The translations under genes were made by a program, and so were the position numbers. From Fusobacterium varium (lineage in GTDB: Bacteria; Fusobacteriota; Fusobacteriia; Fusobacteriales; Fusobacteriaceae): a stretch of DNA of 64,000 bases. The stretch lies in the NCBI GenBank assembly GCA_002356455.1, contig AP017968.1:372001-436000 (forward strand). The letters are read 5' to 3'. The notes below the pieces were generated by a model, which was not told the DNA's origin, did not search any database, and saw only the letters and a program-made list of their open reading frames with translations. Below, piece by piece: positions 19,515 through 40,620 of this stretch; within the stretch, counting starts at the first letter, position 1, and every line of letters begins with the position of its first letter.

Positions 19515-19525
19515 TTTTATTCCTT

Positions 19526-20539
19526 TCAAATAAGTATAGGCGTTTCTATATAAGATACTTTTGTTTCTTTTTTATTAATTTTCCAAATTTTGTCTATACC
19601 TAAAAGTTGATTTACAGATATATTAGGAATATTGATATTCGCTGCAAGACATGTATAATGTATTCCTCCAGACATTCTGGTATTTATTTCTAATAAATAA
19701 GGAATACCATTGTCGTATTTAAATTGAATATTGCAGGGATGTTCTACTCCATATTTCTTAAAAAAGTCTTTGCATATATCTAGAATTTCTTTGTCATATC
19801 TTATTATTTCTGTTCTTGTCAGTGTTTTTACTCTTGGAATAGAAATTAAACCATTTTTTGTTTTTAAACAGTCTACACTTACTTCTTCACCTTCAAGATA
19901 TGGCATCAGCATTATTTCAGCAGTATTTTTTCTTTTTTTTAAAGAATTATATACTTCTTCTGATGTAACTTTAAGCCCTTTTCTTATTAAAAAAATATCA
20001 GCATCCTTCATAGAATCATCAATTATTCTAAAACTTACAGCGCCTTCATCCTCAACAAATTTAAAACAGATTTTTTTATGATTTGCTTTTAGTTTTTGAT
20101 AAGCCTCAATAAATTTTTCAGCTGTATTCACTATATAGTATTCAGGAATATTTCCAATTTTTAATGTTTTAAATAATTCATATGTATTTTTTTTATTGTT
20201 AAGCTGTTTCATTTTTTCAAAATTTTTTTCTGCAAGAACTTTAACAGATATATTCTCAAATCTTTTTATATTTTTAACTATGGAGAGCTGTTTTTTTCTT
20301 GGGATAAATATATTTACAGAATGTCTTTGACAAAATTCTAAACAATACTGCACATACTCTTCATCACTTAGAAAATCAGGTTCTTTTTCCCAGTAATCAC
20401 ATACTGTTTTCATAACATTTTCTTCATTTCCATTAGTACCTATTATATAAAATTCAGTATTATTATCATCTTTTATCATATTAACCATATGATAAGCAGT
20501 ACTGAACCAGTGATTGAACCAAATAATGACTTTTTTCAT
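19526..20539 (-). CDS. ATP-grasp ligase of the Ter module
   Basis: This 337-aa protein is an ATP-grasp enzyme. An N-terminal pre-ATP-grasp part is followed by CFKFVEDEGAVSFRI (ATP lid), MLMPYLEGEEVSVDCL, and the metal-binding end PYLLEINTRMSGGIHYT. Such enzymes join a carboxylate to an amine or thiol through an acyl phosphate. ATP-grasp genes recur next to TerD, phosphoribosyltransferase and HAD genes in predicted Ter biosynthetic modules. A TTGGAGG site precedes the ATG. A strong stem-loop (20555-20579) separates it from the upstream terD gene. Confidence 0.87.
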   Translation of the reverse strand: MKKVIIWFNHWFSTAYHMVNMIKDDNNTEFYIIGTNGNEENVMKTVCDYWEKEPDFLSDEEYVQYCLEFCQRHSVNIFIPRKKQLSIVKNIKRFENISVKVLAEKNFEKMKQLNNKKNTYELFKTLKIGNIPEYYIVNTAEKFIEAYQKLKANHKKICFKFVEDEGAVSFRIIDDSMKDADIFLIRKGLKVTSEEVYNSLKKRKNTAEIMLMPYLEGEEVSVDCLKTKNGLISIPRVKTLTRTEIIRYDKEILDICKDFFKKYGVEHPCNIQFKYDNGIPYLLEINTRMSGGIHYTCLAANINIPNISVNQLLGIDKIWKINKKETKVSYIETPILI

Positions 20540-20584: not shown

Positions 20585-21181
20585 TTATTTATATCTAGCA
20601 GCAAGTTCACCAATACCATCATCAGTTGTTCCTTGACCTATTGCATTGAATTTCCATTCTTCATTATGGCGATATACCTCTCCAAATATCAGAGCAGTAC
20701 ACCCGCTATAGTCATCTGTCAGATTATATCTGCACATTTCTTTATTTGTTTTAGTATCAATTAGTCTTATAAAAGCATTTTTTATCATTCCGAAATGCTG
20801 ATTTCTATCTTTAGCTTTAAATATATTAACAACTATTACTATTTTGTCATAATTTTGAGGGATTTTTTTTAATTCAACAATAATTTGTTCATCATCTCCC
20901 TCGCCCTCACCTGTAAGATTATCTCCTGTATGCCTTACAGAATCAGTATAGTGTTTCAAATTTCCAAAATAAACAATATCTTTTTTATCTATCATTTTAC
21001 TATTTTGAAGAAGCATTGCTGTAGCATCACAATCTATATTGGCTTTTTTGCCAAACATTGAAAAAAAACCACCATTATCTTTTGAAGCTTGATCCCATCC
21101 AAGTCCTAATATAATTTTGTCTAAAGTGCTATTATCTTTTGTAAGGCTTATCTTTTGTCCCTTTTGTAAACTTATTGACAT
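20585..21181 (-). CDS. TerD-family protein, divergent copy
   Basis: The 198-aa protein opens SLQKGQKISLTKDN and has the second calcium loop [15 protein letters not shown]. The first acidic loop differs from its neighbours: an insertion GGFFSMFGKKAN precedes NIDCDATAMLL instead of the usual [10 protein letters not shown]. This makes it resemble TerX/TerZ-type members. It lies 17 bp after the next terD copy and carries a GGAG site. The change may alter calcium affinity. Confidence 0.9.
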   Translation of the reverse strand: MSISLQKGQKISLTKDNSTLDKIILGLGWDQASKDNGGFFSMFGKKANIDCDATAMLLQNSKMIDKKDIVYFGNLKHYTDSVRHTGDNLTGEGEGDDEQIIVELKKIPQNYDKIVIVVNIFKAKDRNQHFGMIKNAFIRLIDTKTNKEMCRYNLTDDYSGCTALIFGEVYRHNEEWKFNAIGQGTTDDGIGELAARYK

Positions 21182-21198
21182 AATATTATTCTCCTTTT

Positions 21199-21780
21199 CT
21201 AATCAATGTCTATTCCATAGTTGATGCAAAGAGCAGCCAGACCTCCTTGATATCCGCTTCCTATTGCATTAAATTTCCATTCACCATTATTTTTATAGAG
21301 TTCTCCAAAGACTGCTGCTGTTTCAATTGAAAAATCTTCTCCTAAATCATATTTCAGTATCTCATTATTTACATCCTCATCAACTATTCTTATATATGCA
21401 TTTGATATCTGTCCGAAATTCTGCCTTCTTTCTTCCGCTTCATATATAGTAGCTGTAAATATTATTCTTGTAATATTTTCAGGTACCTTAGAAAGATCAA
21501 TGGATATTTGCTCATCATCGCCATCACCGTCACCAGTCCTATTATCACCCATATGAATAACAGAACCACTGTTATGCTTCAAATTGCCATAAAAAATAAA
21601 ATCACTTTGTGAAGTTACCTTACCATTTTCTCCTAGAAGAAATGCAGCAGAATCTAAATCAAAATCTCCACCTGTATCAAATTTATTAGTATCCCATCCA
21701 AGTCCTACTATTAATTTTTTTAACCCAGGATTATCTTTTGTAAGGCTTACTTTTTGTCCTTTTTTTAAACTAATTCCCAT
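21199..21780 (-). CDS. terD: TerD-family calcium-binding protein
   Basis: This 193-aa protein has a complete TerD domain with [18 protein letters not shown], the acidic loop [28 protein letters not shown] and a final [28 protein letters not shown] site precedes the ATG. It sits between two other terD genes, with gaps of 17 and 23 bp, as in tandem terD arrays elsewhere. Confidence 0.94.
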
Positions 21781-21803
21781 TTGTTTACCTCCAAAATTGA
21801 AAA

Positions 21804-22385
21804 TTATGCTACTTCTATTCCAAAGTTAGCACAAAGAGCTGCCAACCCTCCTTGGAATCCGCTTCCTACTGCATTAAATTTCCATTCTCCAGCATGTCTG
21901 TAAATTTCTCCAACTACAACTGCTGTTTCAATTGAGAAGTCTTCTCCAAGATCGTATCTGATAAGTTCTTGATTATTGCTTTCATTCACTACTCTTATAT
22001 ATGCGTTTGATATTTGTCCAAAATTTTGTCTTCTCGTTTCTGAATCATAAATAGTAACAGTAAATACAACTTTTTCTACATTAGCAGGGATTTTAGATAA
22101 ATCTACCTTTATTTGTTCATCATCGCCATCTCCTTCACCTGTTAAGTTATCCCCCATATGTTCTACTGAACTGCTTTTATGAATAAGATTACCATAAAAA
22201 ACAAATTCTTCTTGTGAAGGAACTTTTCCATTTGCACCTACTAAAAATGCTGCTGCATCTAAATCAAAATCAGCTCCACCATCATATTTGTTAGTATCCC
22301 ACCCAAGACCAATTACAAGATTTTTTAAACCAGCATTTCCTTTTGTTAAGTCTACTTTTTGCCCTTTTGTTAAATTTATTGGCAT
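21804..22385 (-). CDS. terD: TerD-family calcium-binding protein
   Basis: This 193-aa protein begins [17 protein letters not shown] and keeps [27 protein letters not shown] and [16 protein letters not shown]. The ATG at 22385 is chosen because AAGGAG lies nine bases upstream; an ATG at 22394 is directly attached to that site and too close. It follows the telA gene by 36 bp and is the first of three tandem terD copies. Confidence 0.94.
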
Positions 22386-22421
22386 ATTAATCATCTCCTT
22401 GATTTTTATAGTAAAAAAATA

Positions 22422-23552
22422 TTACTTATTACCAAACATTTTATTAAAATCATCTTTTATAGCTTTTAAACGTGCTTGATCTTCAATACGTTTTCTAGAA
22501 GCATTTTCTTGTATTTGCTTTGTTTCTTCTATTCCTTTTACAATAGTTTTCCAAGTTGTTTCTAAAGTTTCTATTTTTATAGAACTTCCAGAAGCCAATT
22601 GTGCTGCAAGTTTAGCTTGTTCAGAAGTGTTTTGAGCATTTTTAATCAACATCTCATTTGTTTTTTCATCAAGAGCAGCCATTGCTTCAGCTTGTATACG
22701 CTGTCTCTTCAGTAGTATAGCTTGTGAAAGAGCTTGTTTAAATATAGGGAGTGTAATTATAAAAGCTGAGTTTATTTTTCTTATAAGGTTTACATTGCTA
22801 AATTGCATAGTTTTTAGCATAGGGATAGACTGCATAGCCACATTTTCTGCTATTCTTAGGTCTTGTGTTCTTTGCTCCAGCATTTGCTTTGCTTGTACTA
22901 AACTTGTTAATTCAAATTGAATACTTTTATCATTTGACTTTTCCATTTCTTCAGTCCTTTGAGTGATAAAAGTATCTATTTCCTTTATTCCCTGTTCTCC
23001 TGCCAGAATATATTTTAAAAGTTCATGATAATAATTTACATTTGTTTGGAACATTGTTTCAAGTTTTTTATTTGACTGTTTGATTTCAACTTCATATTGT
23101 TTTAGTTTTACATATATTTTATCTATTTCATCTCCCATTGTATGGTATTTATCTAATATTTTTTCAAGTTGTTTTTTCAAATTTCCAAATATTCTTTCTA
23201 AAAATCCTGGTTTTTCTCTAATTTCATCAATATCAAACTTACTCATTATTTTTCCAAGAAGTGTAAGCATTTCTCCAGTATCATTAATTTGAGCCATATT
23301 CATACTATTTAATACAGCATCAGAGCATCTAGATATTTCTTCAGCAACTTCTCCACCGAAAGAGATGATAGTTTCAGTATCATAAACAGATATTGAACTT
23401 ACAAGATTATCTACTTCACGTGAATCTACAAGTTTTTGAGCCATTTCATTTCTATCAGCCTGTATATTAAATTGTTTTACTTCAGCTTCAACTATAGTCA
23501 TGTTATTTTCATCAACAACTATAGGTTCTGTTGAATTCATTTTTATTCCCAT
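22422..23552 (-). CDS. telA: Toxic anion resistance protein, TelA family
   Basis: The product, about 376 aa, is a long helical protein of the TelA/YceH family. It has the early region QKLVDSREVDNLVSSISVYD, the FLERIFGNLKKQLEKIL block, and the late VNLIRKINSAFIITLPIFKQAL region. It is mostly coiled coil with no membrane segment. TelA members are linked to tellurite, nisin and other envelope-stress tolerance. Several start codons cluster after GAGGGG; ATG 23552 has the best spacing, but 23561 and 23540 are possible. It lies between YceG and the terD array, as in Bacillus yce-type operons. Confidence 0.9.
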   Translation of the reverse strand: MGIKMNSTEPIVVDENNMTIVEAEVKQFNIQADRNEMAQKLVDSREVDNLVSSISVYDTETIISFGGEVAEEISRCSDAVLNSMNMAQINDTGEMLTLLGKIMSKFDIDEIREKPGFLERIFGNLKKQLEKILDKYHTMGDEIDKIYVKLKQYEVEIKQSNKKLETMFQTNVNYYHELLKYILAGEQGIKEIDTFITQRTEEMEKSNDKSIQFELTSLVQAKQMLEQRTQDLRIAENVAMQSIPMLKTMQFSNVNLIRKINSAFIITLPIFKQALSQAILLKRQRIQAEAMAALDEKTNEMLIKNAQNTSEQAKLAAQLASGSSIKIETLETTWKTIVKGIEETKQIQENASRKRIEDQARLKAIKDDFNKMFGNK

Positions 23553-23588
23553 TATAATCATACCCCTCTTTTTTATTTTTATAGTTTT

Positions 23589-25862
23589 TTAATTCATAAG
23601 GTTAAGAAGCGATCTTAACCCAAATCTTTCTTTTTTTATATCAAATTTTTTCTTTTCCTTGTCATAAACAGGTATTTTCATATCATAAAGATATTCCCCA
23701 ATTTGATGTTTTACAAAGATATTTTTTTCAAAATGTCCATCAACACTTTGATACCCTGTTGGAACAAAAAGAAGAATATCAAATCCTAAGAATTTTAAGA
23801 AAGCTGTAATTATTCCATCTTCCTTACTTCCTATTTGTTCAGTGGTATCAATTATTACTAATTTTGGTATTTTTTTAGTAAAATCATATTTTTGTATAAG
23901 TCTTAATATTTCTATATCAAGATTAAGTATTGTATCCAATATTGTAAATTCTATACCATTGCTGAAAGTTCCAGGAATAATACCACTATCTAATAATTGC
24001 TGAGCTTTTTCAAAAATATAATTCTGCATTTCATCTCTGATAAATTTATAATTATATGAAGGATGTTTTTTTATTGTTTCCACTTTTATTTTTTTATTTT
24101 TTATAAATGAAACTACAGATTGCCCCAAAGTTTTTTTATTTTTTTCATTTATATATGGAAGATTTTTTATAAATATTCCTTCAGGCTGTAAAAATTGTTC
24201 TATTATTTTCCAATAATTATTTTTATCTTTATTTGGAACACCACATATTTTAGAACATATTACTGGAACCATTACTCTGTCAGTAAGTATTTCAAAATTT
24301 TGTCTGTATTTAGCTTCCTGATTCCATAATATTCCAATTTCTTCATAGGTAGTTTTTAAAGTAACTGGAATAGCATTTTTAAATTGATTTTGTCTGAATA
24401 AGCCAGAATCTTGATATAAAAGCGAATCTAAATCTCGTTCAGCATTATAAGCTGTTGTCCCAAAATTTATATTTTCTAGTTTTTTAGGAAATTTTCCTAA
24501 TGGAATAGAAAATTCATTTATTTCTTCAAATAAAAGTTTATCGTTTATACTGCATTCTAAAGTTTTGTCAGGACAAAATATTATAACATCAACTGGAATT
24601 CTTGCTAGAAGTCTTATAAACAGCTTTTCATTTTCATTTTTACAGCTGCCATAATAAATAAATACAGGATATTTTTTTAAATCTATTTTTTTGAATAGTA
24701 CAGAAATATATCTATTTATCCAACATAAAAGGATTACTCCGCTATTGCTTAATTTTTGTAGCCTTTCATCTTTATTTTCTGTCATTAATTCAATAAAAGC
24801 TTTCTTTAAAAGAAGTTCAAGCTCAGAATTTTGTTTAAAAGAAATATTATTAGAAAGCTCATTTATCAGTTCTATAGAATTTTGATGTAGTTTTTTCTTT
24901 ATTTGCTGTACCTCTAACCCATCAGGATTATGTATTCCATCTTCTATGATTAATACTTCTCTTTCACTGCTGCTCAGTTTTAATTTCCATTTAAATAATT
25001 CATTCATAAAATTATTTTTATCTTCAACACCTGTCATTTTAACAAACATATTATAGTAATAATTATCTTTACTTCCCCTCATATTTGAAGATTTTAAAGA
25101 ATCTTCAAATATATATCCAGCAGTAATCCAAGTGTTTGTACTCATTATTCCTTGAGGCTGAGCTATTTTTATCTGCTTTTTCTCATTAGGGTGACTATAT
25201 TTTTTTATTTCTAGTGCTGTTACAGAAAAATCTTTTGGAAATGGCTGAGGATTATCATTTGGTATTATATAAGATAAAGCTGAGCTTCTATCTAAATTTA
25301 TATCTTCTGCAGTTTGAAGCAAAATGATATCACATCCTGCTTTGGCAAGTATATTCAGCATTTTTAATTCGTGATTGCTTGCATTTCCGTCAAAAAGAAT
25401 TTTAGGAACATTATCCTTTCCCAATGCTTTTAACACAGATTGAAATCTATAATAGAACCAACACATATATTTTACATAAGTATTTTTTAAGATATTAATA
25501 TTTTTCCCCTCTTTTTCCAATACTTTTAATTCTTCAAAAAGAGATTCTATTATTATTGTAATTTGAATTTCTGAAAGTTGAGGTATCCATTTTTTCATAG
25601 TTTTTTCCATGAATGCTTTATCCATTATGAAGTTTTTTCCAGTCATTTCAATAAAATAATTTATTCTTTCCTGAGTTGGGTTTTGAATATTATTTTTTAT
25701 GTAGACTCCACATATTTTTACTTGTTCTAAGTACTTAAAGAGAAAATCTTCTATTTTTATACTGTATGAAGTTACTCTGTAAAAATATATGCCTTTGGGA
25801 CTTCTTTCACTATATTTTTTAAAATAATCATCTGTATTGTTAAATTTTATCTTTTCTGCCAT
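23589..25862 (-). CDS. yceG: YceG-family protein with two internal repeats
   Basis: This 757-aa soluble protein belongs to the YceG family found with TelA, TerD and phosphoribosyltransferases. Two equivalent segments are visible. One contains MCWFYYRFQSVLKAL followed by PKILFDGNASNHELKML and GCDIILL. The second contains LCWINRYISVLF followed by PVFIYYGSCKNENEKLF and VDVIIF. Each looks like a helical lead-in plus a Rossmann-like strand-helix-strand. The start is supported by GAGGAAAA before the ATG. The family was proposed to act in the Ter biosynthetic module, but its reaction is unknown. The same type of domain recurs in the first gene of the operon. Confidence 0.85.
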   Translation of the reverse strand: MAEKIKFNNTDDYFKKYSERSPKGIYFYRVTSYSIKIEDFLFKYLEQVKICGVYIKNNIQNPTQERINYFIEMTGKNFIMDKAFMEKTMKKWIPQLSEIQITIIIESLFEELKVLEKEGKNINILKNTYVKYMCWFYYRFQSVLKALGKDNVPKILFDGNASNHELKMLNILAKAGCDIILLQTAEDINLDRSSALSYIIPNDNPQPFPKDFSVTALEIKKYSHPNEKKQIKIAQPQGIMSTNTWITAGYIFEDSLKSSNMRGSKDNYYYNMFVKMTGVEDKNNFMNELFKWKLKLSSSEREVLIIEDGIHNPDGLEVQQIKKKLHQNSIELINELSNNISFKQNSELELLLKKAFIELMTENKDERLQKLSNSGVILLCWINRYISVLFKKIDLKKYPVFIYYGSCKNENEKLFIRLLARIPVDVIIFCPDKTLECSINDKLLFEEINEFSIPLGKFPKKLENINFGTTAYNAERDLDSLLYQDSGLFRQNQFKNAIPVTLKTTYEEIGILWNQEAKYRQNFEILTDRVMVPVICSKICGVPNKDKNNYWKIIEQFLQPEGIFIKNLPYINEKNKKTLGQSVVSFIKNKKIKVETIKKHPSYNYKFIRDEMQNYIFEKAQQLLDSGIIPGTFSNGIEFTILDTILNLDIEILRLIQKYDFTKKIPKLVIIDTTEQIGSKEDGIITAFLKFLGFDILLFVPTGYQSVDGHFEKNIFVKHQIGEYLYDMKIPVYDKEKKKFDIKKERFGLRSLLNLMN

Positions 25863-25899: not shown

Positions 25900-26952
25900 T
25901 TATAAATCTGATAGATTTTTTATTATTCCACAGGCTTTATAATTATTCAAAGGATAATATTCTATAGGGACATTTTTCTCTTGAGCTAATCTATATAAAT
26001 GTTGTAAAACAGGATCATTTTTATACTTTTCACTTATTAGAAGCTTCCAAGGAACTCTTCTGAGCAATACTCTAGTAGCCTCTCCTATTCCCGGCTTTAT
26101 AAAATTAATCTCTTTTATTCCAAATTTTTTTCCAATATTTAATACTTCTTCAATACCATTTTTATCTGTTGCATTATTTATATTTTTTATGTTAAAATCA
26201 AAATACTTTTCTACCTCTTTTATAAATTCATAAGAAACATCTTCTTTTATTAAATCTGAATAATAAACTGCCCCATGAAAATCATTTTCAGTAATTATAT
26301 CCTTTCTTAAAAAAGTTCTGCTGATAAGACCTGAAACTGTACTGTTAAGACATGAACTTGGAATCAATATATCTTCATGTGTTCCACATAATTCTGTAAT
26401 ATTGGCAGGATCTGATAACACAGCAAGTTCTGTGGAAACATCCTTATAATTTTCAAGAGATTTTTTTAATTCTGTAAGAATTGCTCCCTTTCCTATCCAG
26501 CCATCTACAAATTGAATATCTTCTGCTTTGTGTCTTTCAAGAATATATTTCATAGCATTGTGGTCTATTTCTTTTCCTCTAATTATTGATATAGAATAAT
26601 GTTTAAGATTTTTCATTCCATATTTTCTATTGAGATAATGCTTTATCAGTATTCCAACAGGAATTCCAGCCCTTGCCAGAGAAACTAACACTACATTTTC
26701 TTCTTTTATTTTGTATATTTTTTCTGCTGTAAGACATACTGCTTCTGCTGTTTGCTTTGAATAATTTTTTAAGGCTATGTCATACATTTCCATATATTTT
26801 TTAGTAGGTTTATATTCTACAGGAAGCATTTCAGAGTAATGTGTTCCTTCTTGTATTTTTTTTTCTCTTTCCTCAGTTGATATGGGCATTACCATATTGG
26901 TAATATCTTTCAATAGTAGAATTACATCTTCAGTATTATAAGAAGTTTTCAA
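25900..26952 (-). CDS. StiP-type / phosphoribosyltransferase-like protein of the Ter module
   Basis: The 350-aa protein matches the family often named cysteine protease StiP. It has an N-terminal phosphoribosyltransferase-like part with VLVSLARAGIPVGILIKHYL, then HYSISIIRGKEIDHNAM, FVDGWIGKGAI, and a C-terminal part with INFIKPGIGEATRVLLRRVP. The protease name is historical; in Ter operons it has been reinterpreted as a phosphoribosyltransferase with an RNA-binding-like domain. The start is TTG at 26952, overlapping the TGA of the upstream gene, with GGAGTG eight bases before it. It is the second of two adjacent phosphoribosyltransferase-type genes. Confidence 0.83.
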   Translation of the reverse strand: MKTSYNTEDVILLLKDITNMVMPISTEEREKKIQEGTHYSEMLPVEYKPTKKYMEMYDIALKNYSKQTAEAVCLTAEKIYKIKEENVVLVSLARAGIPVGILIKHYLNRKYGMKNLKHYSISIIRGKEIDHNAMKYILERHKAEDIQFVDGWIGKGAILTELKKSLENYKDVSTELAVLSDPANITELCGTHEDILIPSSCLNSTVSGLISRTFLRKDIITENDFHGAVYYSDLIKEDVSYEFIKEVEKYFDFNIKNINNATDKNGIEEVLNIGKKFGIKEINFIKPGIGEATRVLLRRVPWKLLISEKYKNDPVLQHLYRLAQEKNVPIEYYPLNNYKACGIIKNLSDL

Positions 26953-28091
26953 TCTAAATCACTCCATTGAAATATAGAGATGTCGTTACATTCATGTTCT
27001 TTCAAGGCAGCTATCAAACTTTTTATTCCTTCGCCTTTTGTTGATTTTGAGTCATGAATAATAACAACTTTATCATATTTCTTTAAATTATATAAATAGA
27101 CTACTCTATTTTTATCATAAAGACTTCTCAACTCATGCCTTAAATAAAGAGGGTAGTCTTTTTCTCCGCTTGGAAGAATAGGACTTCTGGTAACAGCATG
27201 AAATTTTACTTCATTACATTTGTATTCTTTTTCAAGCTTTTCTCCTGTTATCATAGCTGGGTACATAAATTCTTCTGTTCCCAGTACAAGAACATCTTTA
27301 TTTTCAAATTCTTCTTTTTTTAATTTTTTTATTATTAATTCAGCTAGTTTATTGCAGTTTTTTTCATATACTCTGCTGTCTGCACCTAATTTAGCATCTA
27401 TATATTCGTTGAAGGAATATTCTTTAATTAAAAAATTTTCTGTAAATTTTAGATTATATCTTCTTTCGTTTTCATAACTGTACTTGTTTAATTGGTCATC
27501 ATAATTTTCTGCTGATAGTTTTATTTCATATATACATTCTATTTGAAATTCGTTGAATTTCTCCATATTTTTTTTATTCATACCATTGAGAATAGAAATT
27601 ACTCCAAAATTTAATTTCTTTTTTGAATATTGCTCTTCTAAAATATTTTTTATATTCCAAATAGTATTTCCTGTGGTTATTTCATCTTCAGCAAATATTA
27701 TTCTATCAGTCTTTTCAATCATTTCTTTTAGATTATTTTTTACAAGCTTTTGTTCTACAGCATGACTGTGAGCTTCTGAAAAAAATAGATATTCACTATT
27801 TTTTATAGTTTCTCTAGTAGTATGTATATATTTTGTTCCTTCTGGACATTGGGCTGCTATAGTTGCACCAATAGCAGTAGCCGTTTCTGCAAAACCTATT
27901 ACTAAGAATTTTTCATTTGGATATTTATTTATTAATTTATTAGCTAATTTTTTAAATAATTCTAATGCTGCTGTTGGACTTACAGGTATATGTTTTCCTT
28001 GCAGAGGATTTACCAAAAGAAAGGTTCTCTTGTTATTGTTGTCCCTTTTAGCTACTTTTACAAGATCCTCTTTATTATATATTTTCTGCAT
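26949..28091 (-). CDS. Phosphoribosyltransferase with C-terminal TRSP-type domain
   Basis: This 380-aa protein has a phosphoribosyltransferase core. The leading strand reads EKFLVIGFAETATAIGATIA and the PRPP loop is FAEDEITTGNTIWN. A second half contains VLVLGTEEFMYPAMI, a RSPILPSGEKDYPLYLRHEL motif and VVIIHDSKSTKGEGIKSL. This matches the PRTase-TRSP proteins of Ter modules, predicted to make a nucleoside-like compound. It begins three bases after the lyase gene and ends overlapping the StiP-type gene, so the three are translationally linked. Confidence 0.87.
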   Translation of the reverse strand: MQKIYNKEDLVKVAKRDNNNKRTFLLVNPLQGKHIPVSPTAALELFKKLANKLINKYPNEKFLVIGFAETATAIGATIAAQCPEGTKYIHTTRETIKNSEYLFFSEAHSHAVEQKLVKNNLKEMIEKTDRIIFAEDEITTGNTIWNIKNILEEQYSKKKLNFGVISILNGMNKKNMEKFNEFQIECIYEIKLSAENYDDQLNKYSYENERRYNLKFTENFLIKEYSFNEYIDAKLGADSRVYEKNCNKLAELIIKKLKKEEFENKDVLVLGTEEFMYPAMITGEKLEKEYKCNEVKFHAVTRSPILPSGEKDYPLYLRHELRSLYDKNRVVYLYNLKKYDKVVIIHDSKSTKGEGIKSLIAALKEHECNDISIFQWSDLD

Positions 28092-28094
28092 TTT

Positions 28095-29069
28095 TTATTT
28101 CACTCCATATGTTTCTGCTAGTATCATTATTTTTTCAGCCCAATTTAAATGAACTTTTACTTCATTCATTCTTTCACCAGAACTGCTTTTTCCTACTGCA
28201 AGTACACTATTTTTCCAGTTTGTTATTTCAAGTGCATCTTCATAATCTGATTGATCTACTATTAAGTTATCATTCACTATAGTTATCTGATTAGGATGGA
28301 TGACAGTTTTTCCTATAAACCCGTTGAGTTTATCCAGTTGAACTTCTTTTGCTAAACCTGTTTTCCATTCATCATTTTTACTGGCAAAATATTCCCATAC
28401 AGGACCAGAAACTACATATTCTCTTGAGAAGACAGTAAGAATATCACTTAATATATTTCTTACAGGAGTTATATCGTAAATACTTTGAGTATAATTGCGA
28501 CGTACTTTGAATTCTTTACAGAAATCATTACCTCCCACTCTTATGTTAAGCACCATATCTTTTACTTCATTAATTTTCTTTTTGAGTTTATATAAATATT
28601 CACTTCTGGTATCTAATTCAATAATTTCTGAACTTTCCAGTATAGGCATCATATATATTGTTTTTTCAATTTCTTTGTTGATTTCTTTCATATATGAATT
28701 GTATTCATCTGCACATTCCAAAGAATATTTTGGAAAGATAAAACCTGTGAATAGAGTGCTATATTCTTTTATTCTTCTAAAAATAGTCAGTATCTGTTCA
28801 GGTTTTCTTACTCTGATAAATATTTTTGGGTAGCTATTCCATTGAGGATTATTTTTTTTATATGTTTCTAATTCTTTGAAAGTTTTTATTACTTGTTCCT
28901 CAGCTGTTTCAACAATATCATCACTTATGGAATCTTCTAAACAAAGAGAAAGAGAATACCTGCCTTTAACTTTTTTTTCTATTATCATTTCAGATATTTT
29001 ATCATTAATAGCAGGAGAATACATTAATGCTCCAACTGTATAGGCCATTTTTTCTCTATTGTCTAACAT
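28095..29069 (-). CDS. HpcH/HpaI/citrate-lyase-like C-C bond lyase of the Ter module
   Basis: The protein is about 324 aa from the preferred ATG at 29069, which has TTGGAGGAAATA directly upstream. An ATG at 29114 would overlap the preceding gene's end. Features of the aldolase/citrate lyase barrel are PAINDKISEMI, CLEDSISDDIVE (metal-binding acidic pair), FIRVRKPEQILTI, FIFPKYSLECA, PILESSEIIEL, NIRVGGNDFCKEF and a late IGKTVIHPNQITIVND. The members of Ter operons are thought to split or form a C-C bond in a precursor that is then joined to phosphoribosyl. The substrate is unknown. Confidence 0.88.
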   Translation of the reverse strand: MLDNREKMAYTVGALMYSPAINDKISEMIIEKKVKGRYSLSLCLEDSISDDIVETAEEQVIKTFKELETYKKNNPQWNSYPKIFIRVRKPEQILTIFRRIKEYSTLFTGFIFPKYSLECADEYNSYMKEINKEIEKTIYMMPILESSEIIELDTRSEYLYKLKKKINEVKDMVLNIRVGGNDFCKEFKVRRNYTQSIYDITPVRNILSDILTVFSREYVVSGPVWEYFASKNDEWKTGLAKEVQLDKLNGFIGKTVIHPNQITIVNDNLIVDQSDYEDALEITNWKNSVLAVGKSSSGERMNEVKVHLNWAEKIMILAETYGVK

Positions 29070-29089
29070 TATTTCCTCCAAATAATTTT

Positions 29090-29746
29090 TTAATCTTTGC
29101 TGCCTTCTTGCCATTTGAATCCCCATCCATATTGTTTATCACAATCTTGATGTCCTTTATGAAATGTAACCAGCTTTTTAACTGTTATCGAATCTTGACC
29201 ATCAAATAACAACTCAGCTATTGCACAGAAATTTCTATGATCACTTTGTTTTCCCATTTCTACAACTATACTTTCATTTCCAGGAACCTGAACAGTAACT
29301 ACAGCATTTGTTGCAGTCCAATTAGGAGCACCTTCATAGATAAAAGTATATATAATAATTTTACGAATATTATTTATTCCTTTAGGGTTTACATAAATAT
29401 TTTCTCCAGATTCCCCACCTGCATTTCCTCTGTCATCTCCCTTGTGCCAGATGAATGGAGCATTGCTGTAGCAACCTTGATTTGTTCTTTGCTCTCTGTT
29501 TCCTCCTCTTCCTTGAGAAAACTGCAGTCCATCAATTATCATTTTTTCCCCATTATTGAGCTCATAATAACATCCTAAATCTAAGTCTATTTCTTGATTT
29601 CCACCTAAAAGCGAGGCTAAAAAACCTTTCTTTTTAGGTTCTTGAGACCAATTTAGATTAATTACGATCTCTTGTTTTCCAGCCATATGCTCTTTGCTCA
29701 AACTGATTTTGTGCTGATCTCCAAATTTTTCTAATTTTACTGCCAT
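29090..29746 (-). CDS. TerA/TerD-superfamily protein
   Basis: The 218-aa protein is a divergent TerD-superfamily member resembling TerA. It has EIVINLNWSQE, the acidic loop EIDLDLGCYYEL, IDGLQFSQGRGG, a glycine-rich HKGDDRGNAGGESGEN site in place of the HTGDNxTG loop, and AIAELLFDGQDS. A GGGGGA site precedes the ATG. It lies 26 bp after the protease-fusion gene and ahead of the lyase gene. Calcium binding is likely but less certain than for the four TerD copies. Confidence 0.87.
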   Translation of the reverse strand: MAVKLEKFGDQHKISLSKEHMAGKQEIVINLNWSQEPKKKGFLASLLGGNQEIDLDLGCYYELNNGEKMIIDGLQFSQGRGGNREQRTNQGCYSNAPFIWHKGDDRGNAGGESGENIYVNPKGINNIRKIIIYTFIYEGAPNWTATNAVVTVQVPGNESIVVEMGKQSDHRNFCAIAELLFDGQDSITVKKLVTFHKGHQDCDKQYGWGFKWQEGSKD

Positions 29747-29772: not shown

Positions 29773-31191
29773 CTATATAAAACCTTTGATGAAACCCAAT
29801 ATTGTTTTATGATTTACAGCTAAATTTATATTTTGTCCTTTATCAAATCCTGCTGTAATTACTCCTATTAATTTGCCATTTAAATCTAGAAGAGCTCCCC
29901 CTGAACTTCCATGAGAAATAGGAGCTGTAAATTGGATCATATATAAATCATCAATCATACGAAATCCTGATATTATTCCATCAGACACAGAATTAAAAAG
30001 ACCTAATGGACTTCCAATTGCTATTACTTTTTGGCCTCTTACCAGTTCTTTAGTATCTTGATAAAGCTTAATGTATTTATGAGATTTTTCTATTTTTATT
30101 ATTGCTAAATCATTTAAATCATGATATTTAACAATTTCATTAGTGAAATATATCTTATCATCATTTTCCAGTTGTACTCCAAAATAATATCCATTTGAAA
30201 TAACATGAAAATTTGTAAGTATACTCCCTTTATCATTAATAATGACTCCTGAACCAGTTTTAATACATTCTTTTTTTCTATTGAATACACTTATCATCAC
30301 AACTGATGAAGCTAACCTTGCAAGTTTTTCATATGATACTTCTTTTGTTTTATTTTCTTCAGCAGTATTTATTTCTTTTTTTTGTTCTGTTTTTTCCATT
30401 GATTCATTTCTTTTTAGGTTTACTTTAACTGTATTATTTGTATTGATTGTGCTGTTTTCTTTAGTGTGATTAACTTCAGCTTTATTTTTTCTATTTTTTG
30501 CTAATAAATCTTCAATGAAAATATCTAATTTTTTACTATTTTCTTCTTCATATAAAGATGATAGTTTTAATAAATTTTCTGGTATATTTATTTTTTTCTT
30601 TTCTGAGTCTAAATAAATGACATCACAGCCTAAAAGCACCAACATATACAAGAAAAGATATTCTTGAATCTTTAATTCCCCTAGATATATAGCTTTAGGA
30701 AAGCCTTTCATTTCTTCAGTATTTTTAAATATTTTTGGAAAATATTTTCCTATCCAATAGAGGAGCTTAATTCCAAAATTTTTTGTTATTGATTCATTTT
30801 GATTTTTTATTTTAAAATATATTTCAATTATTTTTCTATAAGTTTCTTTTAATGTATATTCCCAACACTTATCTTGAAATTTAAATGGGAACTTTAAAGC
30901 ATCTAATTTTTCAACATCATGATATAATTTTTTCCATTCCTCATAAATAATAGAATATTTTTCAATTAAATTGTTTTCTATAAAGTTGTCTAAATTTTTT
31001 TCAATAAAAGCTTCAGGTAAAAGCCCAGAAATTTCTTCTATATAGTTTTTCTCATATTTTATTCCAAGATATCTAAAAAAATAGACATCTTTTTTATAAT
31101 TAAAAAAACGTCCTGAAATATTTTTAAATGATAAAATAGAAGTCAAGGCTATTGGATTTATTCTAACTTCTAATTTTTGTATTTGATTCAT
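29773..31191 (-). CDS. YceG-like domain fused to a trypsin-like (S1C) serine protease
   Basis: This 472-aa protein has two parts. Residues 1 to about 240 resemble one repeat of the YceG protein encoded downstream (LLYWIGKYFPKIF, then PKAIYLGELKIQEYLFLYMLVLLGCDVIYLD). A charged linker follows, rich in N, K, T and E. The C-terminal 190 residues form a trypsin-fold protease with catalytic histidine in TNFHVISNG, aspartate in HDLNDLAIIKI and serine in ISHGSSGGALLD. No signal peptide or membrane segment is seen, so it should act in the cytosol. No PDZ domain is present. It is the first gene of the 14-gene operon. The ATG has no close ribosome site; a GGGGGA lies about 35 bases upstream. Confidence 0.8.
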   Translation of the reverse strand: MNQIQKLEVRINPIALTSILSFKNISGRFFNYKKDVYFFRYLGIKYEKNYIEEISGLLPEAFIEKNLDNFIENNLIEKYSIIYEEWKKLYHDVEKLDALKFPFKFQDKCWEYTLKETYRKIIEIYFKIKNQNESITKNFGIKLLYWIGKYFPKIFKNTEEMKGFPKAIYLGELKIQEYLFLYMLVLLGCDVIYLDSEKKKINIPENLLKLSSLYEEENSKKLDIFIEDLLAKNRKNKAEVNHTKENSTINTNNTVKVNLKRNESMEKTEQKKEINTAEENKTKEVSYEKLARLASSVVMISVFNRKKECIKTGSGVIINDKGSILTNFHVISNGYYFGVQLENDDKIYFTNEIVKYHDLNDLAIIKIEKSHKYIKLYQDTKELVRGQKVIAIGSPLGLFNSVSDGIISGFRMIDDLYMIQFTAPISHGSSGGALLDLNGKLIGVITAGFDKGQNINLAVNHKTILGFIKGFI

Positions 31192-34420: not shown

Positions 34421-36073
34421 ATGAAAATCAAGGGGATATGGTTTTGGCTTTTTCTAATGTTTAGTTATTGCAGTTATGCTAATCAACAGGAATTAATTAG
34501 AGAAGAAAGAAGAAGGCAGGCTGAAGAAATAAGGAAATTAGAAAAAAATGAACTGAAAGATGAAGTCAAACTAAATGATATTGAAGAAGATGCTCAAGCC
34601 ATGGGAAGTGAAATAAGGAATATTACTATTGAAGGGAATACTATATTAAAAAAATCCGAAATTGAACTTTTAAAAAAAAGATATATAAGCAGAAAAGGTG
34701 GAAAAAATATATTAAATTTGATGAAAGAGCTTGAAAATATGTATCTTGAAGAAGGATATATTTCAGTAAGAGTAAAAATAGATATGGAAAAATCAAATAT
34801 TCAAGAAGGGAAAATATTTTTAAAAGTAATAGAAGGACATGTGGAAAAGATTATATTTAAAAATGGAAAGAGTCAGGAAAAACTAAAGATTTTCACATCT
34901 TTCCCTATCTATAAAGGAAAGATATTAAATATAAATGACCTTGATCAGGGAATAGATAATCTTAATTCAGTTTCCTCTAATAGTGCAAGAGTAGATATTA
35001 CAGCGGGAAATGAGCTGGGAGGAAGCATAGTAGAAATAGATAATCATAAAAGGAAAAAAGTATCTGGTGCTGTAAATTATAATGACTTAGGACAAAGTTC
35101 TACTGGTAAGGATAGAATAAAATTTTCTCTCATTTTTGAAGATGTTGCAGGGATAAATGATACTTTTGCAAGTACTTATCAGCGAAAACTTGGAAATAGC
35201 AGAAAATATAAGGATAATGAAAATTTTTCATTTTACTACAGAGTACCAGTAAAATATTGGGAATTTTCAATATCAAAAGACCAATCTGAATATCTTTCTA
35301 CAATAAAGTCTTTTGCTCATACTTATGAAATAACAGGAGTTTCAAAAAATATGAATTATTCTGCAAGAAGGATAATAAGCAGGAACAGCAATGGAAAAAC
35401 TTCTGTAGGAGTGACTCTAACAAATAAGGAAACTAAGAATTATTTTGATGGAATAAAATTGATAACAAGTTCAAGGAAACTTTCTGTATTAAAAATAGAG
35501 GCAAATCATAATAGAAGATTTTTTAATGGAGTGCTATATGGAAATTTTACCTATCATGAAGGAATAAAAAAATTTGGTGCAGAAAAAGATGAAAATAAAG
35601 GGGATTATTCTCCAAGGGCGCAATTTCAAAAATATACTGCTGATTTGAGCTGGTACAAACCATTTATGATAAGAGAGCAGAGGTTTTCATATAGAGTTTC
35701 TTTCAGTGGACAGTATTCAGATGATATACTTTATTCTTCTGAAAAATTAGGAATAGGAGATGATACTACTGTAAGAGGATTTAAGGAGAACTCAATAATG
35801 GGAGATAAAGGTTTTTATATAAGAAATGAAATTGGATATAATTATAAATCTTTAGAACCATTTATAGCATATGACTATGGAAGAGTGAAAGATGTATATA
35901 AAGATGAATATTATGAGAAAAATGGAAGTGAAATGAGTGGAGCAACAATAGGATTGAGAATGTATTTGAATAATTTTGATATGAGTTTTTCATATTCAAA
36001 ACCACTAACAGCTCCAGCTTATATAAAGAAAAATACACATGAGATATATTTTAGTATGAGTACAAGATTTTAA
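34421..36073 (+). CDS. Two-partner secretion outer-membrane transporter (TpsB, ShlB/FhaC/HecB family)
   Basis: The 550-aa protein has a signal peptide (IWFWLFLMFSYCSYA), a charged linker, a POTRA domain around residues 64-140 (IRNITIEGNTILKKSEI), and a C-terminal 16-stranded-type barrel. The barrel includes the family motif VRGF (451-454). It sits in the outer membrane and exports its partner across it. A GGGAGAG site precedes the ATG. The partner exoprotein gene begins 23 bp downstream, so the two form an operon. Length is normal for TpsB. Confidence 0.92.
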   Translation: MKIKGIWFWLFLMFSYCSYANQQELIREERRRQAEEIRKLEKNELKDEVKLNDIEEDAQAMGSEIRNITIEGNTILKKSEIELLKKRYISRKGGKNILNLMKELENMYLEEGYISVRVKIDMEKSNIQEGKIFLKVIEGHVEKIIFKNGKSQEKLKIFTSFPIYKGKILNINDLDQGIDNLNSVSSNSARVDITAGNELGGSIVEIDNHKRKKVSGAVNYNDLGQSSTGKDRIKFSLIFEDVAGINDTFASTYQRKLGNSRKYKDNENFSFYYRVPVKYWEFSISKDQSEYLSTIKSFAHTYEITGVSKNMNYSARRIISRNSNGKTSVGVTLTNKETKNYFDGIKLITSSRKLSVLKIEANHNRRFFNGVLYGNFTYHEGIKKFGAEKDENKGDYSPRAQFQKYTADLSWYKPFMIREQRFSYRVSFSGQYSDDILYSSEKLGIGDDTTVRGFKENSIMGDKGFYIRNEIGYNYKSLEPFIAYDYGRVKDVYKDEYYEKNGSEMSGATIGLRMYLNNFDMSFSYSKPLTAPAYIKKNTHEIYFSMSTRF

Positions 36074-36096
36074 ACATTTTAAGGGGGAAGATTAAA

Positions 36097-39000
36097 ATGG
36101 AGATATTAAAAAACAAGCTGCTGAAAAGATTGCTTATATATACCTACATCTTTTTTAGTATCTTTACACAATCAGCAATGGCAGCTGCAAAAGTAGTTGA
36201 CCAAAACAGAAATCAACAGGTAAATGTAGAAAAGGCACCAAATGGAGTTCCAATAATAAATATAAATGCACCTAATAAGAATGGAGTTTCACATAACTAT
36301 TTTGAAGAATATAATGTTGGAAAAGAAGGAGTGCTCTTAAATAACAGCAGTAAAGAAAATAATAAAACTCAACTGGGAGGAATTATTCAAGGAAACTCTA
36401 ATTTAAAAGGCAGAGAAGCTGATGTTATTCTGACAGAAGTTACAGGTGTAAACAGAAGTAATATAGAAGGATATACTGAAATAGTTGGAAAATCTGCTGA
36501 GTATATTTTAGCAAACCCAAATGGAATATATCTAAATGGAGCTGGGTTTATAAATACGCCTAGAGTAATACTTACAACTGGAAAATCTATAACTGATGAA
36601 CTTGGAGATTTGAAAGGGTTTGATATAGATGATGGAACGGTGGTAGTGGGAAGTCAAGGGATAGATGGAAAAAATGTAAGAATGGTAGATATTGTTTCAA
36701 GAACAGCAGAGCTGAATGGTGCAGTATATGGTGGAGAAGAAGTAAATGTTGTTTTAGGAAGAAATGAATATAATCATAAAACAAGAGAAGTGAAAGCCAA
36801 GGCTGAAAAAGATGGAGATAAACCTAAAGTGGCTTTAGATGCTAAAGCATTAGGTTCTCTTTATGCTGGTAAAATATATCTTCAAAGTACAGAAAAAGGT
36901 GTTGGAGTAAATAGTCAGGGAGAGATGCTGGCAGGGTCAGGGGATCTTGAAATAGATGTTAATGGAGATTTGATATTAAAAGATGCTCAAGCTAAGAATG
37001 ATATAAAAATCAAAGCAGATAATGTAAATATACAGGAAAAAGCTATTGCAGAAAATAATATTAATATAAACACTAAGGATATAGTGAATACTGGAAGTAT
37101 ATCTTCAAATAAAAATATAGAAATAAATAGTTCAAATATTGAGAATAAAGGAAATATATCTTCAAAAAATATAAATATATCTAATAAAGATAAGATTGTT
37201 AATACAGGAAAGATTTCAGCTGATAATGTAACAATAGCTTCAAAAGATATGGAAAATAAAGAGCTTACTGCAGTAAATGCAGATATTACTTTAAGTGGAA
37301 ATTTAAAAAGTGAATCATTGAAAGCAGTAGAAAATTTAAATATTAAAGCAAAAAATATAGAAAATACAGGAACAATAGCTGCTAATAAAAAAGTAAAAAT
37401 TGAAAGTACAAATTTATCAAATAAAGGTAATATCAGTGCAGATAGTATAGAAATAAAAAATGAAAATAATATTTTAAATGAAAAAAATATAATATCTTCT
37501 TCAATTAATATGACATCAAAATTTCTGTATAATAATGGGCTTATCCAAGCTGATATTTTAACTTTAAAAATTACAGACTACTTAGAAAATAATGGAAATA
37601 TATTGGGTAAAACAACTACATTAAATGTTGGACAACTGTTGAATAAAGGAACTCTTTATGGAGAAAATTATCTGACTATCACATCTTCTAAATATATTAA
37701 TGAAGATTTGGGAATTATAACTGGAGGACAGCTCTTCATAGATGGTATTGGGGATAATGCTGGAGATATGTCAGGAGAAAAACTGATTCTCACTGGAAAA
37801 GAAATTAAAAACAGTGGAAATATAACAGGAAGAGATACAGTTAATATTACTGCTGATTTAAATAATAGTGGAACTATTCAAGGAAAAAATCTGGTAAATA
37901 TAACTGGCAGTATAGACAATAAAAAAGATATAAAGAGTGAAAATGAATTAAAGATATCTGGAAATATAATAAATACTGGGTATATTTATAGTGAGAATGC
38001 AGAGATAACAGGAAACCTCAATAATAGTGGAGAAATTCTTTCTCTTTTAAATATGAAGATATCAGGGAATATAACCAATAATAAAGTCATAAGCAGTGGA
38101 AATAAGCTTGTTTTATTGAGTGATGATATTTTAAATAATGGCAGAATATCTGCTTTGGAAATTTTAATCACTGGAAAAAAATTTGTAAACAGCGGGATAA
38201 TGACTTCAGATACTGGAATTTTTAATATTTATGATTTTGAAAATTCAGGAATTATACATGGTAATAAAAATATTACTATTTCAGGAAATCAAATTGTGAA
38301 TACTAAACTTATCCAAAGTTCAAATGACTTGTATCTAATTTCACAGAATATAATAAATAAAGGAGACATATTCTCAAGAAATAATATGAATATTACTTCA
38401 CAATTTTTCAATAACAGTGGAAGAATAATAGGAGATGGAGATTTAAAATTTGATGCTGCTAATTATATTGAAAATTCTAATTTGATTCAAGGGAAAAATA
38501 TAACACTTAAAAAAATTGATAATAGCGGAAAACTTGTTGCAAAAGAAAATATAAAAGCCTCTAAAGTAAAAAATACAGGTACTATATCTGCTATGAAGAA
38601 TTTTGAAGGGGAAGGGCTGTTGAATTTTCTTTTTGGAAAATTAATTCTTGGAGAGAATATGAGCCTTGAAAAAGAGCTGCTCAATGAAGGAATTATTTCA
38701 GTAAAAGGGGACATAACAGCAGAAAATGTTTCTAATACTGGAAGTATAATTTCAGATAAAGATATAAGATTAAAAGAATTAGATAATAATGGGGGAATTA
38801 TTGAAGGAAAAAACATAGAGATAAAAAATACTACAGTTCTTAATAATCAATCAGGAAATATAAGAGTATTTGACAATGATTCTGTGCTGTCTATTCAGGC
38901 AGAAAATATTCTAAATACAGAGGGAAAGATACAATCTCAAGGGCAGCTTGAACTTAATATTTTTAATTCTTTTGCTCTTGAAGGAAGTTATACAGGAAAT

Positions 39001-40620
39001 GGACTTTTAAAAATAACAGCAGTATCTCTTACTACAAAAACAGATATAGAAAATAGTGGAGATATAGTACTTAATTTAACTGGAGATTTTTTAAACAATA
39101 ATAAATTTATTGGTGGAAAGAGTATAACTATAAATGCTGTGAATCTAGTAAATAGTAATATACTGGGAAGTACAGAAAGTTTTACAGCAAATCTTTCAGG
39201 AAGATTAGATAACTATAATAAATTGGTTTTAGGACATGGAAATAATATGATAATAGCTAGTGAAAGCGTCATTAACAATGGATTTTTAACTTCACAGAAT
39301 AATTTGGATATAAATTCAAAAGATTTAATAAATAATAGTCAGATAATTTCTGGAAATAGTTTGATTTTAAATACAGAGAGTATATTAAATGGGAACTATT
39401 CATTGATATATTCAAAGAATGATATAACTATGTCTGTAAAAAAAGATTTTATTAATAATAAGGGAGAAATATTCTCTGAAAATAATATAAAAATAAAAGC
39501 TTTAGGTAAAGTTCAAAATAATGCAGGGATTATTGAAGCAATAGGAGATATTTATATAGAGGGAGAACAAATTGAAAATCTTGGAGAAGTTATAGAGAAT
39601 CCTTCTGTTGCTGAAAATATATCAGTTTCTACAATGTCGGAAAGTTTAGATCTGGTGGATAGAGCAGAAAATAATTATGCAAGTACAATGGCATATATTT
39701 CATCTGGAAAAAATATTACTCTGAAAACTACAGGAGATGTTATAAATAGAGAAGGAAATATTTCAGCAGATAATGATGTAAATATAACAGCCTACAGGTT
39801 GATAAATGAAAATTTTTCAGGAAATACTGCTGTCTATTCTCTGACTGGAAGTGAAGCCACAGGAATTGATAAGGGAACAAAAATATCAGCAGGGAATAAT
39901 ATAAATATATCTGCTATAAGAACAGGAGATGGAATTTTCTCCAAAGAGATAAATATAGTAAATGCCAAAGATATAAATATAAAGCAAGTAATTTTAAACA
40001 GCAGTAATGTAGAAAGAATTGGGACGATTGATATAGAAAGTTATATTACAATTCCTGAAGAGGATAAAGGGTTGTTTGTTGTGAATAAGGATTTAGTAAA
40101 TTCAAAAGATATTTTAATAGATTCTAAAGAAAAAACAGAGGTTGGCAAAGATGAAATATCAATTATAAATAATTCTATTTCAAATGAAAAAGAACCTGAA
40201 TTTAAATATCTTATAGAAACAAATATAAAATTTACAGATATGGGTTATTATCTTGGTTCAGATTATTTATTTGGAAAAATAGGTTATAACCCTGAAAAAG
40301 ATATCAAACTTCTAGGTGATTCATTTTATGAGTCAAGAATAGTAAACAGAGCTATTTTTGAAAGTACAGGAAAGAGATATTTAAATGGAGCTGTGAATGA
40401 AAAAGAACAGATGCAGATATTGCTGGACAATTCTATAAAAGCTATGGAAGACTTTAATCTGTCCATTGGAATAGCTCTTACAAAAGAACAGATAAATAAT
40501 CTTAAAGATGATATTATATGGTATGTGGAAGAAGAGGTAGAGGGAGTAAAAGTTTTAGTTCCAAAGGTATATCTTTCTAAAGAAACTCTTGCTTCATTAG
40601 GAAAAATCAATCTGGAATAA
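36097..40620 (+). CDS. Filamentous-haemagglutinin-type exoprotein (TpsA), probably C-terminally short
   Basis: The 1507-aa protein has an extended signal peptide ending near SAMAAA and a TPS secretion domain with GNSNL (variant of NPNL) near residue 98 and NPNGI at 140-144. A long region of beta-helix repeats follows, rich in N, I and G, with recurrent NTG and NSG turns. It would be exported by the upstream TpsB and act as an adhesin or carrier at the surface. The frame ends right after EGVKVLVPKVYLSKETL, which in larger relatives is followed by further repeats and a C-terminal domain. An IS1182-like element begins 181 bp later. I infer truncation, but a naturally short exoprotein is possible. 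Confidence 0.88.
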   Translation: MEILKNKLLKRLLIYTYIFFSIFTQSAMAAAKVVDQNRNQQVNVEKAPNGVPIININAPNKNGVSHNYFEEYNVGKEGVLLNNSSKENNKTQLGGIIQGNSNLKGREADVILTEVTGVNRSNIEGYTEIVGKSAEYILANPNGIYLNGAGFINTPRVILTTGKSITDELGDLKGFDIDDGTVVVGSQGIDGKNVRMVDIVSRTAELNGAVYGGEEVNVVLGRNEYNHKTREVKAKAEKDGDKPKVALDAKALGSLYAGKIYLQSTEKGVGVNSQGEMLAGSGDLEIDVNGDLILKDAQAKNDIKIKADNVNIQEKAIAENNININTKDIVNTGSISSNKNIEINSSNIENKGNISSKNINISNKDKIVNTGKISADNVTIASKDMENKELTAVNADITLSGNLKSESLKAVENLNIKAKNIENTGTIAANKKVKIESTNLSNKGNISADSIEIKNENNILNEKNIISSSINMTSKFLYNNGLIQADILTLKITDYLENNGNILGKTTTLNVGQLLNKGTLYGENYLTITSSKYINEDLGIITGGQLFIDGIGDNAGDMSGEKLILTGKEIKNSGNITGRDTVNITADLNNSGTIQGKNLVNITGSIDNKKDIKSENELKISGNIINTGYIYSENAEITGNLNNSGEILSLLNMKISGNITNNKVISSGNKLVLLSDDILNNGRISALEILITGKKFVNSGIMTSDTGIFNIYDFENSGIIHGNKNITISGNQIVNTKLIQSSNDLYLISQNIINKGDIFSRNNMNITSQFFNNSGRIIGDGDLKFDAANYIENSNLIQGKNITLKKIDNSGKLVAKENIKASKVKNTGTISAMKNFEGEGLLNFLFGKLILGENMSLEKELLNEGIISVKGDITAENVSNTGSIISDKDIRLKELDNNGGIIEGKNIEIKNTTVLNNQSGNIRVFDNDSVLSIQAENILNTEGKIQSQGQLELNIFNSFALEGSYTGNGLLKITAVSLTTKTDIENSGDIVLNLTGDFLNNNKFIGGKSITINAVNLVNSNILGSTESFTANLSGRLDNYNKLVLGHGNNMIIASESVINNGFLTSQNNLDINSKDLINNSQIISGNSLILNTESILNGNYSLIYSKNDITMSVKKDFINNKGEIFSENNIKIKALGKVQNNAGIIEAIGDIYIEGEQIENLGEVIENPSVAENISVSTMSESLDLVDRAENNYASTMAYISSGKNITLKTTGDVINREGNISADNDVNITAYRLINENFSGNTAVYSLTGSEATGIDKGTKISAGNNINISAIRTGDGIFSKEINIVNAKDINIKQVILNSSNVERIGTIDIESYITIPEEDKGLFVVNKDLVNSKDILIDSKEKTEVGKDEISIINNSISNEKEPEFKYLIETNIKFTDMGYYLGSDYLFGKIGYNPEKDIKLLGDSFYESRIVNRAIFESTGKRYLNGAVNEKEQMQILLDNSIKAMEDFNLSIGIALTKEQINNLKDDIIWYVEEEVEGVKVLVPKVYLSKETLASLGKINLE

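Follow-up and report, generated by a model that had tools for sequence, protein, structure and literature searches.

The ter operon in the window analysed here, a 64,000-nucleotide stretch of Fusobacterium varium DNA, is headed by a gene that joins an N-terminal YceG-like domain, via a disordered linker, to a C-terminal trypsin-fold domain of the HtrA/DegS (S1C) type. The fusion is a real gene and is more widely spread than first reported. As far as could be checked, it is an undescribed protease branch of ter operons that is built from known parts: the preliminary description of this DNA had noted no described function for it, and a literature search that covered sources other than the principal survey of Ter systems (Anantharaman et al., 2012) found neither a published description nor a function. 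The reading favoured here, to which we give about an even chance, is that the product would be a cytosolic HtrA-like protease that docks to YceG, TelA and TerD and cuts a partner protein upon a Ter trigger.

Domain structure of the fusion protein

The open reading frame runs from an ATG at position 31191 to a stop codon at 29773-29775, and its parts and neighbours are collected in Table 1. The preliminary description had proposed a YceG-like domain fused to a cytosolic trypsin-like protease with an intact His-Asp-Ser triad. Indeed, both domains score above their Pfam cut-offs and no export signal is detected by hydropathy. YceG_bac (PF14266) matches residues 35-208 with 61.2 bits (cut-off 25) and Trypsin_2 matches residues 313-444 with 85.1 bits (cut-off 27.6). 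An AlphaFold2 model of the protein has a mean pLDDT of 76, and values under 50 at linker residues 241-281.

Table 1. Positions in the window of the fusion gene, its parts and the other genes of the ter operon.
Feature	Position	Strand	Basis
YceG-trypsin fusion gene, 472 aa	29773-31191	-	First in ter operon; ORF, Pfam, orthologues
N-terminal YceG-like domain, residues 1-225	30517-31191	-	Pfam match 35-208, HHalign, strand/helix order
Linker, residues 226-284; charged, disordered, fast-evolving	30340-30516	-	pLDDT, codon differences
HtrA/DegS-type (S1C) trypsin-fold domain, residues 285-472, without PDZ	29776-30339	-	Pfam, Foldseek
Catalytic His329	30205-30207	-	Kept in 50/51, one X
Catalytic Asp361	30109-30111	-	Kept in 51/51
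Catalytic Ser430 in GSSGG	29902-29904	-	Kept in 51/51
Divergent TerD-like protein, 218 aa	29090-29746	-	TerD 19.8 bits, below cut-off 25.3
C-C bond lyase of Ter biosynthetic module	28095-29126	-	PF15617, 343.6 bits
PRTase_2-TRSP phosphoribosyltransferase	26949-28091	-	PF15609, PF12500
StiP with PELOTA_1 domain	25900-26952	-	PF11202, PF15608
Three-repeat YceG, 757 aa, likely docking partner	23589-25862	-	PF14266, 302.7 bits, 3 stretches
TelA	22422-23561	-	PF05816, 327.8 bits
Three TerD genes (21804-22394, 21199-21780, 20585-21181)	20585-22394	-	PF02342, 249-289 bits
ATP-grasp of Ter operon	19526-20539	-	PF15632, 125.6 bits
HAD-family hydrolase	18765-19529	-	PF08282, 49 bits
Calcium P-type ATPase (PMCA type)	16087-18732	-	TIGR01517, 604 bits
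Fourth full TerD, operon end	15483-16067	-	PF02342, 255 bits

Sequence and fold both assign the C-terminal domain to the HtrA/DegS (S1C) type. Foldseek aligned it with DegS and HtrA1 at E about 1e-14, with a TM-target of up to 0.82 against the isolated DegS catalytic domain, and the proteins that it most resembles in structure are DegS and the anti-sigma factor RsgI9 (S1C domain). The triad residues H329, D361 and S430 all align with the triad of HtrA1 and, together with the oxyanion-loop residues (GSSGG), are kept by all 51 aligned members, one of which has an unreadable residue (X) at the His position; the fusion carries the triad with GxSGG that is required of S1C proteases. The additional features of full-length DegP, DegQ, DegS and HtrA are not found. 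Pfam detects no PDZ domain, the protein stopping where the protease domain ends; hydropathy detects no export signal or membrane anchor; and the NCBIfam cut-offs for HtrA, DegP and DegS are all missed, the best score being 108.7 bits against a cut-off of 416.2 (degP_htrA_DO).

Within the first 60 residues of the fusion no 19-residue stretch exceeds a hydropathy of 0.81, and by this measure neither a signal peptide nor an N-terminal membrane segment is present there. Across the family the corresponding value is at most 1.01, and a hydrophobic N-terminus is absent from every full-length member, whereas secreted relatives of the protease reach 2.0-2.6 and the nearest other S1C proteases in Clostridia, as judged from their hydrophobic N-termini, appear to be secreted. 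The fusion protein thus looks cytosolic, and because its nearest S1C relatives have the hydrophobic N-terminus that it lacks, this type of protease was probably recruited into the cytosol in the fusion family. If this is true, an S1C type with secreted nearest relatives would be used in the cytosol through a domain that is shared with its partner.

The N-terminal half had been likened to one repeat of the YceG protein encoded in the same operon, and this resemblance was recovered both in profile alignment and in the predicted order of strands and helices, which agrees with that of the YceG repeats. HHalign matched the domain to repeat 1 of the three-repeat YceG at 98.0% (E 2e-13) and to repeat 2 at 89.9 (E 2e-6), and gave no match to repeat 3. 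Of the YceG repeats, the extra first one of the three-repeat protein is thus the nearest to the N-terminal domain, and the outcome named beforehand as refuting the proposal, an N-terminal domain unlike the YceG repeats, did not arise.

Codon differences between the window and its close relative G026 are distributed very unevenly along the gene. In the protease domain 4 differences are non-synonymous and 14 are synonymous, the strongest constraint among the parts of the fusion, and in the linker 11 are non-synonymous and 1 is synonymous. This pattern suggests a working, presumably catalytically active, enzyme on a free tether. A motif, V-x-V-x-[ILV]-P-x-R, is found in one to three copies in 22 of 51 linkers, compared with 0.11 expected from shuffled linkers, a comparison that flatters the motif because the pattern was picked after viewing these same linkers. 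Examples include L089, L091 and L109, and the short forms L071, L078 and L095; in the window's own fusion the motif is degenerate (TVKVNLKRN). As a guess, the motif might serve as a docking strand or else as a segment that inhibits the protein itself.

The ter operon and the distribution of the fusion

The ter operon of the window is complete and the fusion is its first gene, as the preliminary description had placed it, with 26 bases to the next gene of the operon and 947 bases to the neighbour upstream. The minus-strand run continues with the TerD-like gene, C-C lyase, PRTase, StiP, three-repeat YceG, TelA, three TerD, ATP-grasp, HAD hydrolase, calcium ATPase and a last TerD. The divergent TerD-like gene between fusion and lyase is also present in G026 and is absent from G051. 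There is no enrichment of promoter-like sites, of which 25 were counted against 29 expected, and neither a terminator-like site nor a match to an Rfam family turned up. Beside the ter region, at 34421-40620, lies a two-partner secretion pair consisting of a ShlB/FhaC-type transporter and a 1507-aa TPS-domain exoprotein, and two DDE transposases, each 492 aa long, flank the ter-operon stretch at 8209-9687 and 40956-42434.

Members of the fusion family were recovered in both Fusobacteriota and Lachnospiraceae, and the fusion is much commoner than had been assumed. In the window's taxonomic family it occurs in 3 of 61 genomes: that of the window, G026 (95% identity), where it is also first in the ter operon, and G051 (52%). 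All three encode a three-repeat YceG (757-761 aa). Four others among the 98 genomes of the phylum that were searched have a two-repeat YceG and no fusion. In the YceG tree, two-repeat proteins of G049 and G050 nest with the three-repeat protein of G051 (support 0.999), which suggests that G049 and G050 have lost the first YceG repeat, the protease and most of the ter operon.

A scan of genome contigs with the window's fusion protein alone found no relative, the search patterns being too specific. Scanning with an alignment of the three-repeat YceG gave 80 loci, mostly from Lachnospiraceae. The same protease domain is found in 54 proteins of the whole set, nearly all of which lead a YceG-TelA-TerD-calcium ATPase unit, and in the majority of Lachnospiraceae loci the fusion lies directly upstream of YceG or of YceG's rhomboid neighbour. 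In most of the family proteases the YceG domain is present and the protein is about 440-590 aa long. Nine short variants (274-323 aa) are without it and keep the place in the operon. The N-terminus of these short variants (L064, L065, L071, L076, L078, L082, L085, L095 and L114) consists of motif repeats. Seventy three-repeat loci had at least 2.5 kb of upstream sequence, with the protease alone at 26, protease and rhomboid at 21, rhomboid alone at 10 and neither at 13, and none of seven two-repeat loci had a protease or a rhomboid; since the loci were collected with a three-repeat query, these shares describe the gathered set and not all ter operons. The rhomboid (PF01694, 79.5 bits in L039; 38 proteins) is encoded directly upstream of the three-repeat YceG in many Lachnospiraceae ter operons (within L043-L122, e.g. 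L069:9377-9982 and L122:9397-9987; also L039:859-1464), where its gene often comes after the fusion.

In a sample of 397 Lachnospiraceae genomes the fusion was present in 23 of the 39 that were YceG-positive and in none of the 358 that were YceG-negative (Fisher p 3e-27, a value that overstates the independence of the data because the sampled genomes are related). One of these 23 genomes (G192) has only a fragment of the core YceG, where a contig breaks off. Among 391 genomes sampled across the Clostridia, the fusion is found in three (G115, G805 and G784), and in G805 a two-repeat YceG lies beside it. At L158 (G784) the YceG part of the fusion gene is interrupted by a stop codon, and that genome yielded no core YceG. 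At L143 and L144 (Ruminococcus albus genomes) and at L146 the fusion stands alone, away from the ter operon, and a three-repeat YceG is also present in the genome.

Overall, the fusion is co-directional with YceG, TelA and TerD and co-occurs with them, and this gene order and genome co-occurrence with YceG support its assignment to the Ter module; in Lachnospiraceae it is a regular part of ter operons. A chance fusion is excluded by the 52% full-length identity in another genus and by the dozens of Lachnospiraceae orthologues. Scans of IMG/VR viral contigs with the fusion and YceG alignments found no relative, and tblastn of the N-terminal domain found no match on plasmids, so a mobile-element origin is unsupported here.

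Proposed docking to YceG and alternative functions

In the favoured model the fusion would act as a cytosolic serine protease of HtrA/DegS type within the Ter stress-response module. The N-terminal YceG-like domain would be an adaptor, and the flexible linker would tether the protease to a YceG/TelA/TerD assembly at the inner face of the membrane. Stress sensed by this assembly (metal, oxidative or envelope) would bring the protease to, or switch it on at, a partner protein, which it would then cut. Docking to YceG is the simplest reading of the shared domain, and need not use repeat 1; together with catalytic activity, regulation and cleavage of a specific partner, it is what we infer from the analysis. 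In Bacillus subtilis the yceC-H operon belongs to the sigma-W, sigma-M and sigma-B regulons (PMC3498285), and YceGHI, when overexpressed, adds to nisin resistance (PMC7864038). By inference these data point to membrane or envelope stress as the trigger, and they would fit a membrane-linked stress role.

The protease and YceG trees agree, with a distance correlation of 0.86 (the top of 2000 permutations being 0.50). We tested whether adaptor and repeat 1 specifically co-evolve and saw no sign of it: once the operon history that they share is allowed for, the two do not co-vary (partial correlation -0.05, p 0.65), and repeat 1 from the same locus was no closer to the adaptor than that from other loci (score 70.3 versus 70.4; mean rank 15.9 of 30). 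A strict pairing of the fusion with three-repeat YceG was abandoned, because in L157 a two-repeat YceG lies beside it. Both results weaken the docking model, as do the three-repeat loci that have neither protease nor rhomboid (13 of 70) or the rhomboid alone (10), the short variants that hold the operon place without a YceG domain, and the Ruminococcus fusion that lies away from the ter operon. A more specific proposal is that ter operons of Lachnospiraceae and some Fusobacteriota contain an undescribed proteolytic arm, in which the HtrA-like protease would be recruited through YceG-YceG contacts and, in many Lachnospiraceae together with the rhomboid, would cut a target at or in the membrane; this we consider possible but doubtful.

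Two of the alternatives take their lead from the HtrA family itself. DegS cuts RseA, and by the same logic the fusion could be a regulatory protease that cuts a repressor, an anti-sigma factor or a Ter component and so turns the response on or off, with the rhomboid possibly making a second, membrane-embedded cut. This would agree with the structural matches to DegS and the RsgI9 S1C domain, with the place of the fusion at the head of the operon and with the rhomboid that adjoins YceG at many Lachnospiraceae loci. However, the genes beside the fusion included no conserved one for a repressor or an anti-sigma factor, DegS acts outside the cytoplasm whereas the fusion looks cytosolic, and a rhomboid was not found in the three fusobacterial genomes with the fusion, so the rhomboid step cannot be general. 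Such a role is unlikely on present evidence. HtrA family members are often quality-control enzymes, and this habit, with the strong conservation of the catalytic domain, would also suit a cytosolic HtrA that degrades damaged proteins in metal or oxidative stress and whose YceG domain only positions it near the Ter assembly. The fusion has no PDZ domain for substrate capture, however, and its occurrence only with YceG in the Lachnospiraceae sample would be odd for a general housekeeping enzyme; quality control is thus quite improbable.

A protease gated by a ligand, with the YceG-like domain binding a small molecule, perhaps one made by the operon's biosynthetic enzymes, and with no docking to YceG, would make sense of the biosynthetic genes (lyase, PRTase, StiP and ATP-grasp) in the same operon. 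It could also draw on a weak P-loop-like match in a fold search with YceG (VIA-align Z up to 7.4, 135 residues, rmsd 3.6), but chance arrangements reach scores of this size and the N-terminal domain shows little conservation across the fusion family, leaving this reading very unlikely. We hold it no less improbable that the fusion is a defence effector, in which invader-triggered proteolysis would arrest or kill the cell and YceG would be a homotypic adaptor. The preliminary description had already likened the fusion to protease-linked immune systems, and of this the architecture stands by analogy, resembling that of pairs of effector-associated domain (EAD) proteins and trypsins (PMC7159879); the adaptor copies, however, are not mutual closest relatives. 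The trypsin part resembles anti-phage RT-Protease proteins, and ter genes have been termed phage-inhibiting (PMC8123226), but the rest of the operon has no PADLOC match and the searches of viral contigs and plasmids returned neither a relative nor the adaptor.

The way in which Ter systems protect cells is not yet well understood. A protease in such a system would give it a clear biochemical output, since one serine can be mutated and the proteins that then stay uncut can be sought. Moreover, in gut Lachnospiraceae that have YceG this family is common, which opens the question to study in culturable anaerobes.

Comparison with known systems

Among known anti-phage proteins, the PADLOC RT-Protease (type XI) proteins have a C-terminal trypsin domain that is related to that of the fusion (65 bits), and in these systems a reverse transcriptase is the partner where the fusion has YceG. 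In the VMAP, iSTAND and GAP1 conflict systems, copies of a small, non-enzymatic and self-associating adaptor, the EAD, are carried by a core component and by a trypsin effector (PMC7159879). The coupling is alike here, in that one adaptor copy is on the core YceG and another on a trypsin-like effector encoded next door, and the two co-occur across genomes. The differences are that the YceG-like domain is about 200 aa long, that neighbouring copies are no closer to one another than to other copies, whereas adjacent EADs are mutual closest relatives, and that no vWA-MoxR core was seen in the window's ter operon, unlike in EAD systems; YceG is absent from the text of the EAD paper (PMC7159879).

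With the HtrA/DegS family (MEROPS S1C: DegS, HtrA1 and the RsgI9 S1C domain) the fusion has in common the fold, the triad and GxSGG, but where those proteins have a PDZ domain, a signal peptide or a membrane anchor the fusion has a YceG domain. With the YceG of ter operons (PF14266; B. subtilis YceG) it shares one YceG domain, the operon and the genomes; it combines a single divergent repeat with a protease, whereas ordinary YceG consists of two (about 530 aa) or three repeats (about 757 aa).
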